A DNA stretch of 64,000 bases from Prochlorococcus sp. AG-412-I05 (GTDB taxonomy: Bacteria > Cyanobacteriota > Cyanobacteriia > PCC-6307 > Cyanobiaceae), in assembly GCA_003214855.1 (NCBI GenBank), contig QCLC01000006.1, forward strand, positions 1-64,000, read 5' to 3'. The notes below the pieces were generated by a model. The model saw nothing but the letters and a program-made list of their open reading frames with translations, did not search any database and was not told the origin of the DNA. Position 1 is the first letter of the stretch. Each line of letters starts with the position of its first letter. Made by a program: the position numbers and the translations under genes. Below are positions 3,325-58,098 of the stretch, one piece after another.

Positions 3325-3432
3325 GCAATCAACCTTTGAAGAAAAGGCGAGGCAGCACAACGCGGGTATCCGCGTATGGGGCGTTGTCTGCCTGATTTAA
3401 AGGATCAATCAAGCAGACAACGCCTTATCTCG

Positions 3433-5283
3433 ATGACCCATACAAAAGCGCACGAGGATGTCTCGTGTTCCCCTGAAAAGAGTGCGTCTGAGATCTCTTC
3501 AACGAGCTCGGATGATGGTTTAACAACTGTGGCTGAGGCCACCAATCACAACAATTCAGGCGATGGCTCGGTCGCTGTAGCCGCTGAGGCCTGTGAAGAT
3601 CCTGAAGCGACAGAGTTAGTTTCCGAATTCGATTGTTTTGGCTTTAGCGAGCCGTTGCTCAAGACCCTTGCAGAAAAGGGTTATAAGCAACCCTCCCCAA
3701 TTCAGAAAGCTGCTATTCCAGAATTGATGCTGGGTCGTGATCTAGTTGGTCAGGCTCAGACTGGAACAGGCAAAACAGCCGCTTTTGCGTTGCCCCTGAT
3801 CGAGCGGCTTCAGGATCATGGCAGTCGTCCCCAAGTGTTGGTGCTGGCCCCGACCCGGGAGTTGGCGATGCAGGTCGCGGATTCGTTCCGTGCTTATGCC
3901 GTTGGCCATCCGCATCTCAAAGTTTTGGCGGTTTATGGCGGAGCCGATTTCCGCTCTCAGATCAATTCGCTCAAGCGTGGCGTGGATGTCGTGGTAGGCA
4001 CCCCGGGCCGCTTGATGGATCACATGCGGCAGGGAACTCTCGACACCTCTGGTTTGAGGTGTTTGGTGCTTGACGAAGCCGATGAAATGCTGCGTATGGG
4101 TTTCATCGATGATGTCGAATGGATCCTGGAGCAGCTACCTGAGAAACGCCAGATGGTGCTTTTTTCGGCAACGATGCCATCAGAGATTCGTCGACTTTCG
4201 AAGCGTTACCTACACGAACCAGCAGAGATCACGATCAAGAGCCGTGATCAGGAGGCTCGTCTCATCCGTCAGCGATGTATAACTCTCCAGAACAGCTACA
4301 AACTTGAAGCCCTTAAAAGGGTTCTTGAGGCTTTCACTGGTGAGGGAGTGATTATTTTTGCCCGCACCAAGGTGATCACTCTCACCGTGGCTGAGGCATT
4401 GGAAGCCGCTGGACACGATGTTGCCGTACTGAACGGGGATGTCCCTCAAACCCAACGGGAACGAACGGTTGAACGTTTGCGCAAAGGCAGCGTGAATATC
4501 TTGGTTGCGACTGATGTTGCCGCTCGAGGCCTAGATGTCGATCGCATCAGCCTGGTGATCAACTACGACATCCCTTTTGATAGCGAAGCCTATGTGCATC
4601 GCATCGGGCGTACCGGCCGGGCTGGCCGAAGTGGACAGGCCATTTTGTTCGTGAATCCTAGGGAGCGTCGCTTTGTGGGCGGCTTTGAACGTGCTGTAGG
4701 TCAACCCATCGAACCGATGGATATCCCCAACAATGCAGCGATTAACCAGAGTCGTCTTGATCGCCTTCGTCAACGTCTCACCACTGCCGCTAAGACGGAG
4801 AGAGACAACTCCGAGGAGACAACCCTTCTCCAGGAGCTAATCCAGCGTGTTGTTGAGGAACTCAGTCTCAGTCCAGAGCAATTGGCTCTGGCAGCATTAG
4901 AGCTTGCTGTTGGCCCAGGCCCAATCTTAGTGCAGGCTGATGAGGGCTGGTTGCAGCAATCAACTCAGCGAATCCGTCGCAACGATCGTCACGAAAGTCG
5001 TGGAGGCTCTGGCCGAAGGCCTGAGCGTTCATCGAGACCGCCGGAAGATCACATGGAGCGTTTTCGCGTGGAAGTTGGTCGCCGCGATCGTGTCAAGCCT
5101 GGCAATCTGGTTGGTGCCATTGCCAATGAATCCGGGCTGGAAGGACGGATGATTGGTCGCATCCAGATTTTTGAGTCGCACAGTCTTGTGGATCTTCCCA
5201 AAGGAATGCCTGAGGATGTTTTTAAAGATCTAAAACGTCTCAAGGTGATGAATCGAGAATTGCATATCCAGCGTGCTTCTTAA
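3433..5283 (+). CDS. deaD: DEAD-box ATP-dependent RNA helicase (DeaD/CsdA type)
   Basis: AQTGTGKTAAF, PTRELA, DEADEML, SATMP, ARGLDV, HRIGRTGRAGR motifs and C-terminal RNA-binding domain; ORF is open from 3376, ATG at 3433 preferred. Confidence 0.93.
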   Translation: MTHTKAHEDVSCSPEKSASEISSTSSDDGLTTVAEATNHNNSGDGSVAVAAEACEDPEATELVSEFDCFGFSEPLLKTLAEKGYKQPSPIQKAAIPELMLGRDLVGQAQTGTGKTAAFALPLIERLQDHGSRPQVLVLAPTRELAMQVADSFRAYAVGHPHLKVLAVYGGADFRSQINSLKRGVDVVVGTPGRLMDHMRQGTLDTSGLRCLVLDEADEMLRMGFIDDVEWILEQLPEKRQMVLFSATMPSEIRRLSKRYLHEPAEITIKSRDQEARLIRQRCITLQNSYKLEALKRVLEAFTGEGVIIFARTKVITLTVAEALEAAGHDVAVLNGDVPQTQRERTVERLRKGSVNILVATDVAARGLDVDRISLVINYDIPFDSEAYVHRIGRTGRAGRSGQAILFVNPRERRFVGGFERAVGQPIEPMDIPNNAAINQSRLDRLRQRLTTAAKTERDNSEETTLLQELIQRVVEELSLSPEQLALAALELAVGPGPILVQADEGWLQQSTQRIRRNDRHESRGGSGRRPERSSRPPEDHMERFRVEVGRRDRVKPGNLVGAIANESGLEGRMIGRIQIFESHSLVDLPKGMPEDVFKDLKRLKVMNRELHIQRAS

Positions 5284-36346: not shown

Positions 36347-36647
36347 ATAACACAGCGATGAAGAAAGTGTGTCTGTATGGTTTTTTAGTTAGAGATTGGC
36401 TAAGTTTAGGCCAAGAGCAGTTGAATATCTCCAAGCAGGCTTTCCAGTAATGTGGCTTTTGTTGAAGTGAAGTTTTTTCGTTGGCTACTCTCACGAAGGA
36501 ATGCCAGTTAAATGGATTCATGAACAGTTGGTTTTGTTCGAGCAATGAATCTTGCAATGTTGAATGAATCGCTTGCTTGCATTGATTAGAGAAGTCTGGT
36601 TAGAGACTCAGTATTTTTCTGCTGGAACATCTTCGTGGAAAGGGAAG

Positions 36648-36704
36648 TAGCATGTATGGCTCCAGCTCTCATGGATTTAAGAGAGTTGGAACCATACATG
36701 CTTA
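36648..36704. other. Long imperfect inverted repeat (hairpin of about 22 bp)
   Basis: AGCATGTATGG[C]TCCA[G]CTCTC ... GAGAG[T]TGGA[A]CCATACATGCT with about 10-nt loop; no T tract on either strand. Confidence 0.7.
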
Positions 36705-36744
36705 ACTGATCTAAAGGAGTAAATAAGAAGCCAATTTTGAGGCT

Positions 36745-49997: not shown

Positions 49998-51050
49998 GTG
50001 CAAACTTATGGAAATCCTAACCCCACCTATGGGTGGTGGGCAGGAAATGCTGGAACTACAAATCGATCAGGAAAATTCCTGGCAGCGCATATTGCCCACA
50101 CAGGTTTGATGGCCTTCTGGGCAGGATCGTTCACCTTATTTGAACTTTCCCGTTATGACCCCTCAGTACCCATGGGGCATCAGCCTCTGGTTGCCCTCCC
50201 TCATCTGGCAACTCTTGGAATAGGGGTCGGTGATGGTGGTGTCATAACTGATACTTACCCAATTGTTGTGACGGCAGTCCTGCACCTGGTTCTATCCATG
50301 GTTTATGCAGCTGGCGGACTTATGCACTCCCTCCTATTCAATGGAGACATTGGCGAAATGGGAGTTAAGTGGGCTAGAAAGTTTGACTTTAAGTGGGATG
50401 ATCCAGACAAGTTGACCTTTATTCTTGGTCATCACCTATTCCTATTAGGCCTTGGCAACGTTCAATTTGTTGAATGGGCTAAGTATTACGGCCTGTATGA
50501 CAATGCAGAAGGTGTAGTACGAACTGTAGTACCAAACCTGAACATTGGCATGGTATGGAATGCTCAGTTTAATTTCCTAGCTATTAATAGCCTTGAAGAT
50601 GTAATGGGCGGCCATGCCTTCCTCGCATTGTTCATGATGTCCGGTGGCCTTTGGCACATTGTTACCAAGCAAGCTGGTGAGTACACCACATTTAAAGGCA
50701 AAGGAATCCTTAGTGCTGAAGCTCAGCTCTCATGGGCCCTTGCAGGTGTAGGTTGGATGGCTTTAGTTGCTGCCTTCTGGTGTGCTTCTAACACAACCAT
50801 TTATCCAGATACATTCTTCGGTGAAGTTCTAGATCTCAAATTCAGTATCTCTCCTTATTGGGTTGACACTGCAAATCTTCCTGAAGGAACCTACACATCA
50901 CGTGCTTGGTTGACCAACATCCACTACTACTTGGGATTCTTCTATATCCAAGGTCATCTGTGGCATGCCCTCAGAGCTCTCGGATTTGATTTCAAGAGAG
51001 TTTCCAATGCTATTGGCAATGCCGACAGCGCAACAATTACTCTGAACTGA
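49998..51050 (+). CDS. pcb: Chlorophyll a/b-binding light-harvesting protein Pcb (IsiA/CP43 family)
   Basis: MQTYGNPNPTYGWWAGNAGTTNRSGKFLAAHIAHTGL, FILGHHLFLLGLGNVQFVEWAKYYGLYD, SGGLWHIVTKQAGEYTTFKGKGILSAEAQLSWALAGVGWM, NIHYYLGFFYIQGHLWHALRALGFDF; GTG start. Confidence 0.95.
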   Translation: MQTYGNPNPTYGWWAGNAGTTNRSGKFLAAHIAHTGLMAFWAGSFTLFELSRYDPSVPMGHQPLVALPHLATLGIGVGDGGVITDTYPIVVTAVLHLVLSMVYAAGGLMHSLLFNGDIGEMGVKWARKFDFKWDDPDKLTFILGHHLFLLGLGNVQFVEWAKYYGLYDNAEGVVRTVVPNLNIGMVWNAQFNFLAINSLEDVMGGHAFLALFMMSGGLWHIVTKQAGEYTTFKGKGILSAEAQLSWALAGVGWMALVAAFWCASNTTIYPDTFFGEVLDLKFSISPYWVDTANLPEGTYTSRAWLTNIHYYLGFFYIQGHLWHALRALGFDFKRVSNAIGNADSATITLN

Positions 51051-51072: not shown

Positions 51073-51105
51073 AAGCCCTGCACTCATGTGCAGGGCTTTT
51101 TTTTT
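51073..51105 (+). terminator. pcb terminator
   Basis: AGCCCTGCAC-TCAT-GTGCAGGGCT followed by T tract. Confidence 0.9.
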
Positions 51106-56996: not shown

Positions 56997-57521
56997 TCAC
57001 CTCTTCCTTTGGAATAAGAACAATACCAGTAACAGTGTTCCCCAGATTGGTAATAGATAAATAGCGGTAAAAACCCCCATTACGAAAACAGTAGAGGCAA
57101 CAATTATTGCGGTTCCGATTCCAGCCCCAAGTAACCAGCGACGCAGTCTTTTCGGCCATACTTGCCCGGTGAGTCGATCTAGTTGATTCTGTAGCTCCCT
57201 ACGTTCTTGAGTCATCTCCTGCAGACGGCTCTGATGCCAGGAGACTGAGTTTCGAGCTGATGATTCAACGACCTTTTTCTGTATACCTCCTAGGAAATCT
57301 GAGGAGCCAGAAAACATTGAGCGCACACTAACCGCTTGAGCTTGAATGAGTGCACGGCTGGTCTCGCCGATTGCTCGATCGAGCCTCTCTAGTCGAGCCT
57401 GCAATGACTGCACAGGGTCAGCATTGCGTGAGAGGTCGATCCTTTGCAGGGCGACGACTTTGTTGGGTCTGCTAAAAATTCCTTGAATGAGGCGCAAATG
57501 GTTTGTTCCGGACCTTTGCAT
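56997..57521 (-). CDS. Hypothetical protein, coiled coil plus C-terminal TM pair
   Basis: ARLERLDRAIGETSRALIQAQ...RLQEMTQERRELQNQLDRLTGQVWPKRLRRWLLGAGIGTAIIVASTVFVMGVFTAIYLLPIWGTLLLVLFLFQRKR. Confidence 0.6.
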   Translation of the reverse strand: MQRSGTNHLRLIQGIFSRPNKVVALQRIDLSRNADPVQSLQARLERLDRAIGETSRALIQAQAVSVRSMFSGSSDFLGGIQKKVVESSARNSVSWHQSRLQEMTQERRELQNQLDRLTGQVWPKRLRRWLLGAGIGTAIIVASTVFVMGVFTAIYLLPIWGTLLLVLFLFQRKR

Positions 57522-57641
57522 TATGGGGTGTGCTCGTCAACACGTTCTATCGCTAGGCCTATAGGGGCCTCCACTGGTTGGGAGCTTCAGCCATGGATGT
57601 GTTGAACCTGCCTGAGTCGGCTTGAAAGGCAGGTTTTTTAG
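57520..57641 (+). ncRNA. Candidate structured small RNA with intrinsic terminator
   Basis: Outer stem TCAACAC/GTGTTGA, inner AGGCC/GGCCT, terminator AACCTGCCT...AGGCAGGTT+TTTTT; no plus-strand CDS immediately upstream to account for it. Confidence 0.5.
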
Positions 57642-57807
57642 AATCCGTTCAGCCGCGCTAAAACACCATTGGTAGTGCCTGGGGGAGTGTAAACACTCCA
57701 GCGCATCCACTCATGACGTTCGTTTTGCTGCTGACTAAAACGGTATTAGAGCCAAGGACAGGGTGATGGATGGAGAGGTCGGTCCTGAAAGGCTCTAGGG
57801 GCCTACT

Positions 57808-58098
57808 TTGTGGGCCCCCGCTAACAACGGTTGGAGTCAAGCAATTGCAAGCCAAAGCTCAGATAGCAAACGAAAACCCAGACAATCAGTTTCTTATTCA
57901 ACAAACGATGCCCTTAAAGCTGACTACCGTGAGATTCGTCGTCTGGAAAAAAAACGGCTTGGTGTATTGCTCTATAGACGTGAAAGTATGGAGCGTGAAT
58001 TAGAAGCAATTAAGGCAGCTTTGAGCACATTTGAAGCTCAGATGCAGAGAAATGTCGCCTATGAGCAGCTCTCTATCTGTCATAAACCCTCTCCTTAA
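57808..58098 (+). CDS. Small coiled-coil hypothetical protein
   Basis: ADYREIRRLEKKRLGVLLYRRESMERELEAIKAALSTFEAQMQ; start uncertain (GTG at 57808). Confidence 0.45.
   Translation: MWAPANNGWSQAIASQSSDSKRKPRQSVSYSTNDALKADYREIRRLEKKRLGVLLYRRESMERELEAIKAALSTFEAQMQRNVAYEQLSICHKPSP

Follow-up and report, generated by a model that had tools for sequence, protein, structure and literature searches.

The window analyzed here is a 64,000-nucleotide stretch of Prochlorococcus sp. AG-412-I05 (contig QCLC01000006.1), whose genome is of a low-light type, and the region of interest lies between two divergent genes. The minus-strand ORF of 174 aa (56997-57521) encodes, as judged by eye, a coiled coil and two membrane helices, and the plus-strand ORF p84 (57844-58098, 84 codons) encodes a small basic coiled-coil protein; no protein family scored above the cut-off for the flanking ORFs. 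We consider it fairly probable that the DNA between them holds two separate plus-strand units: unit 1, a probable short, lineage-specific terminated transcript, and unit 2, a promoter followed by a two-hairpin mRNA leader. The leader, which lies beside the hairpins flagged in the initial annotation, is a better-supported feature than the small RNA (sRNA) candidate proposed there.

All of the structural elements previously marked in unit 1 are present. The outer stem formed by TCAACAC (57537-57543) and GTGTTGA (57599-57605) is actually longer than described, extending over 11 bp (57537-57547/57595-57605), two of them G-U pairs. Within it lies the inner hairpin (57555-57570), in which AGGCC (57555-57559) and GGCCT (57566-57570) flank the loop TATAGG. 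The intrinsic terminator (57605-57639) consists of a 9-bp stem between AACCTGCCT (57605-57613) and AGGCAGGTT (57627-57635), a 13-nt loop and a T6 run (57634-57639), and the A57605 base is common to the outer stem and the terminator stem. A terminator scan with a loop limit of 8 missed this terminator, whose loop is 13. Only two perfect stems of 8 bp or more with a T6 run behind them are present in the 64-kb window, this one and the pcb terminator (51073-51098); approximately 0.1 per strand would be expected by chance. No plus-strand gene lies just upstream of unit 1, and the absence of a coding partner for the terminator on its own strand, pointed out from the start, supports a short plus-strand transcript. 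A conserved reading frame is excluded because single-base indels separate the relatives. The rarity of the terminator therefore makes a short plus-strand transcript of approximately 110 nt (57530-57640) plausible, and unit 1 is treated below as a candidate of this type. The promoter scan of unit 1 yielded nothing above threshold; a weak possible -10 element, CATTAT (57519-57524), read from the sequence only and retained in MIT9313 and a second relative, G003, would place the RNA start near 57530-57532.

The fold of unit 1 as a whole is ordinary, and it is the terminator that is unusual. Compared with its shuffled sequences, unit 1 gave a z value of -2.1, with 6 of 200 shuffles folding as well; in the window scan, its z value was -1.6, and 261 of the 2096 segments of equal length (approximately 12%) scored as low. 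Elsewhere in the window, the segments 3356-3477 and 36601-36722 have very low folding z values on both strands (approximately -5 to -6). In addition, an Rfam match to IsrR, the isiA antisense RNA, lies just above threshold at 50394-50557 on the minus strand, antisense inside a pcb/isiA-like gene (49998-51050); an IsrR-like RNA on pcbD has been reported for Synechococcus CC9605 (PMC5069720).

Among 60 relatives, the interval 57480-57900 has full-length matches only in MIT9313 (G002, 94% identity) and G003 (87%). Likewise, when unit 1 alone was sought in the five species of its own genus that were covered, copies besides its own were found only in MIT9313 and G003, an absence from the other two members that is soft because those genomes are 78-85% complete. 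Between the present genome and G003, the identity is 96% in the promoter of unit 2, 90% in the leader and 83.5% in unit 1 (three gaps), compared with 77-80% at the fourfold-degenerate sites of neighboring genes and 74% in the spacer downstream of p84. Unit 1 has thus evolved only slightly more slowly than neutral sequence. In its structure, for which there are three sequences only, 86.9% of cells are paired and no compensatory pair occurs. Eight of the nine pairs counted in the outer stem are invariant in the three species and one is lost in G003, so that the near-invariant arms of this predicted stem leave room for a function. On the other hand, both relatives lack some of the inner-hairpin pairs, and their terminators are weaker, at -7.9 and -6.6 kcal/mol versus -15.4 kcal/mol here.

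Because the start codon of the 174-aa ORF lies at 57521 on the minus strand, the promoter and 5' UTR of this gene must share the DNA of unit 1, and it is quite possible that the conserved blocks at 57526-57605 represent that promoter and 5' UTR, with the plus-strand stems being incidental; the z value against shuffled sequences is also slightly lower for the minus strand (-2.1) than for the plus strand (-1.6). However, the T6 terminator works on the plus strand only, and the upstream regions of the 174-aa homologs, which are found only in small (Prochlorococcus-size) genomes, contain no copy of unit 1 or its blocks. Tentatively, and with somewhat more doubt, unit 1 (57530-57640) may instead be a new, functional Yfr-type sRNA that acts in trans and occurs in the MIT9313 clade only. 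The strong terminator of the present genome, the two nearly invariant blocks that make up the outer stem and the lack of a coding frame all argue for such a role, whereas the near-neutral rate, the altered inner hairpin, the weaker terminators of the relatives, the lack of a family match and the ordinary fold z value argue against it. The true start of the 174-aa ORF is uncertain: its codon at 57519-57521 is ATG here and in G003, while in MIT9313 TAA comes after the ATG, and the reading frame probably opens at the next GTG.

Unit 1 resembles the Yfr1 and Yfr2-5 sRNAs of picocyanobacteria in size range, intergenic placement and the expected terminator; it differs from Yfr1, Yfr2 and Yfr7 by position, and from Yfr1 and Yfr2 also by Rfam model. 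In MIT9313, yfr1, yfr2 and yfr7 have been reported at 1220973, 1667304 and 727045, respectively, with yfr1 spanning 1220973..1221029 (PMC1242208). The Yfr1 13-mer was found in that genome at 1220993, and the counterpart of unit 1 lies elsewhere, at approximately 1117730-1117888. The Yfr1 and Yfr2 Rfam models gave no match in 57400-57900, and the Rfam scan proposed in the initial annotation assigned unit 1 to no sRNA family at either gathering or lax thresholds, returning nothing apart from a chance snoRNA match. Of the earlier suggestion of a Yfr-like sRNA, the short terminated transcript is plausible, but the Yfr label was derived from size, with no Rfam match and with copies in three close genomes only. 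The case for unit 1 as a conserved functional sRNA is weak and unproven, and by itself this reading would be of local interest only.

The initial annotation had also noted a related string approximately 230 bp downstream of unit 1. This string is indeed present at 57796-57836, but the resemblance is not that of a repeat; the string is part of a separate leader, whose P2 hairpin, GGGGCCTAC-TTT-GTGGGCCCC, it contains ahead of the Shine-Dalgarno sequence (SD) GGTTGGAG. The shared element TAGGGGCCT is invariant at the downstream site and absent from unit 1 of MIT9313 and G003, and for this reason it is not an old repeat. The possibility that unit 1 is a degenerate copy of the leader was likewise discarded, since neither leader covariance model matches 57520-57641 and the relatives lack the shared string in unit 1.

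The two-hairpin leader RNA occupies 57748-57818, with a predicted +1 at A57748. Its P1 stem pairs 57748-57753 with 57791-57796 and has an inner helix of GGAC (57756-57759) and GTCC (57782-57785); P2 pairs 57798-57806 with 57810-57818. The ribosome-binding site of p84, GGTTGGAG (57829-57836), forms the end of the related string. In MIT9313, the equivalent of A57748 is 1117642 on the complement strand, and the predicted end of unit 1 corresponds to approximately 1117750. The p84 start codon (57844-57846) is ATT here and ATG in MIT9313 and G003, which may mean that p84 uses a rare initiation codon, that its start is damaged or that the draft genome has a wrong base here; because ATT replaces the ATG of the relatives, translation of p84 in the present genome is uncertain. 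Of 151 family genomes, 102 have a p84 homolog, although many of these matches are weak (E of approximately 1e-4). Within its own genus, the leader is single-copy and restricted to the three genomes with p84.

Covariation supports the leader structure. In an alignment of eight leaders from other genera, 92.7% of cells are paired and nine pairs have changed on both sides; the covariation score is 0.41, compared with 0.27 for shuffled alignments (0 of 500 reach the observed value) and at most 0.17 when the structure is slid. A covariance model built from these eight leaders, with no sequence from the own genus (R1), has its best match in the window at 57745-57822 (E 0.0037), followed by a match with an E of 3.4. 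The own copy scores modestly with this independent model (20.9 bits). R1 also matches the leader at the equivalent place in MIT9313 and G003 and recovers the held-out leaders L037 and L080 together with further leaders, among them L112 (E 2.5e-10). A second model, R2, in which the own copy is included, matches the leader with an E of 2.9e-08. An alignment of 33 loci, fitted to the model structure, contains compensatory changes in 16 of 21 pairs, and RNAalifold, run on the 33 sequences, arrives at both P1 and P2 unaided. The predicted structure is conserved across many Prochlorococcus genera. With stricter filters, the family scan placed the leader in 34 of 300 genomes and 22 genera, a few matches at its cut-off, such as L125 and L129, looking like chance; outside the own genus, it was found in none of the genomes searched that are larger than 2.1 Mb. 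Besides MIT9313, SS120 and MIT9211 appear to carry the leader. Several short matches, including L009 and L015, were set aside as chance matches inside genes. A phage or viral origin was also rejected, as the region had no phage match and neither the ORF nor the promoter pattern turned up in a viral contig. Shortened leader-like hairpins (GGCTTTAGGAGGGCTTTACGCCCTCCGC) were seen at positions 1501-1542 of both L130 and L131, with no clear small ORF downstream.

The leader is preceded by a promoter of its own. Its inferred core consists of a -35 box, ATGACG (57713-57718), a 17-nt spacer and a -10 box, TAAAAC (57736-57741), and an upstream element (57684-57703) combines the palindrome GGAGTGTAAACACTCC with an overlapping conserved repeat unit, TAAACACTCCAGCG, which in other genera is repeated in tandem with a period of 14-15 bp. 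The better p84 homologs share an upstream layout in which tandem copies of the TAAACACTCnAGCG unit lead to a motif with ATTTACA at its end; after 17-18 bases comes a TAnACC-like -10 box and, six bases later, AGAGCC. A 29-bp promoter motif matches 25 sites spread over 24 of 121 genomes, compared with none for the reversed control, and all 25 are upstream of a p84-type gene. As a genome-wide site in the own genome, the motif was discarded (31 matches versus 30 for the reversed control). The -35/-10 spacing is alike in nearly all of the leaders tabulated. A 17-codon ORF at 57713-57766 initially looked coding, with no second-position changes between MTFVLLLTKTVLEPRTG here and MTFIVILPKTLVEPL in L004; it was rejected because G003 has a stop at codon 11 and L041 has a different sequence, and its conservation is that of the -35 to -10 region. 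In Prochlorococcus AG-409-B05 (L004, 1501-1580), the promoter part without P2 precedes a different ORF of 66 aa beside a high-light-inducible-type gene, and the full leader occurs elsewhere in the same genome (L109).

In other genera, the leader is also found ahead of an unrelated membrane-type protein of 46 aa (MNYQEGLNLIESILPIAVG...), at L115, L118, L119, L121-L124, L126, L127 and L133. Downstream of the 46-aa protein, a small acidic protein ends in a CP12-like CxxxPxxxxCKVYDD tail; neither protein has a match in Pfam or NCBIfam. In this second context, the SD is masked by a third, small hairpin formed by CUUCCU and AGGAGG.

Structured 5' UTRs of small ORFs are known from picocyanobacteria in the form of the Downstream-peptide motif (RF01704, the glutamine-II riboswitch) and the Yfr6 leader (PMC2864571, PMC1242208). 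The present leader shares with them its placement before small ORFs and differs in having two simple 5'-end hairpins; the RF01704 model had no match in ten leader loci, and Rfam 15 as a whole gave no family match in these loci at E values up to 0.5-1. Yfr103 is an abundant ncRNA of 290-328 nt in Prochlorococcus MIT9313 and marine Synechococcus, with Synechococcus homologs and paralogs, and a conserved imperfect palindrome lies at -29 to -58 before its start (PMC5069720). The palindrome and repeat of the leader promoter, at approximately -45 to -64, resemble that palindrome in placement. By distribution, the basis of this comparison, Yfr103 differs from both units, as the leader was not found in the Synechococcus-size genomes searched and unit 1 was found in three Prochlorococcus genomes only. 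No description of such a leader was found in the literature searched; the main MIT9313 transcriptome paper lies outside this search and may already list the leader or unit 1 as a transcript.

In nearly all of the leaders tabulated, P1 opens with the predicted +1, which lies seven positions past the -10 box, and the predicted 5' UTR is 90-100 nt long; the message would therefore begin inside a stem. A candidate activator would bind the TAAACACTCnAGCG (TAAACACTCGAGCG) repeats adjoining the -35 box, the RNA would start at the first base of P1, and its 5' end would be closed in this stem, with P2 following one base later. In this way, the hairpins would protect the message against 5'-end-dependent decay while keeping the ribosome site within a short, open spacer of fixed length. 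The E. coli ompA leader is a 5'-terminal stem-loop that stabilizes its mRNA. The leader described here is similar in having a stem at or near base 1 and an open SD spacer; the two are not homologous, and the effect of the present leader on decay is hypothetical. The accessibility of the SD is mixed between species, with probabilities of being unpaired of 0.23-0.93, which counts against the proposal.

A ligand-sensing riboswitch, or a site for an RNA-binding protein that switches the small-protein genes, would offer another explanation of the leader (57748-57818), in keeping with the presence of both hairpins before two unrelated small genes and with the third hairpin that pairs with the SD in the second gene group (CUUCCU/AGGAGG). 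We regard this as unlikely, however, because the leader loops vary in sequence and length and a short U-U-A-G junction is the sole conserved unpaired core, so that neither a ligand site nor a protein site can be discerned, and because Rfam provides no match. The variable loops argue against a ligand pocket and thus favor 5'-end protection together with a fixed open spacer. The likely job of the leader is therefore to protect the 5' end of the mRNA and to keep the ribosome site usable.

More speculatively, and with little confidence at present, the leader and its repeat-bearing promoter might mark an undescribed small-protein regulon in low-light Prochlorococcus, with an activator and a switch that acts on the 5' hairpins at the RNA level. 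A leader that two small-protein genes unrelated to each other share across many genera, and that has a conserved promoter of its own, provides a concrete handle. Prochlorococcus has few regulatory proteins, and RNA leaders and small proteins may therefore carry much of its regulation.
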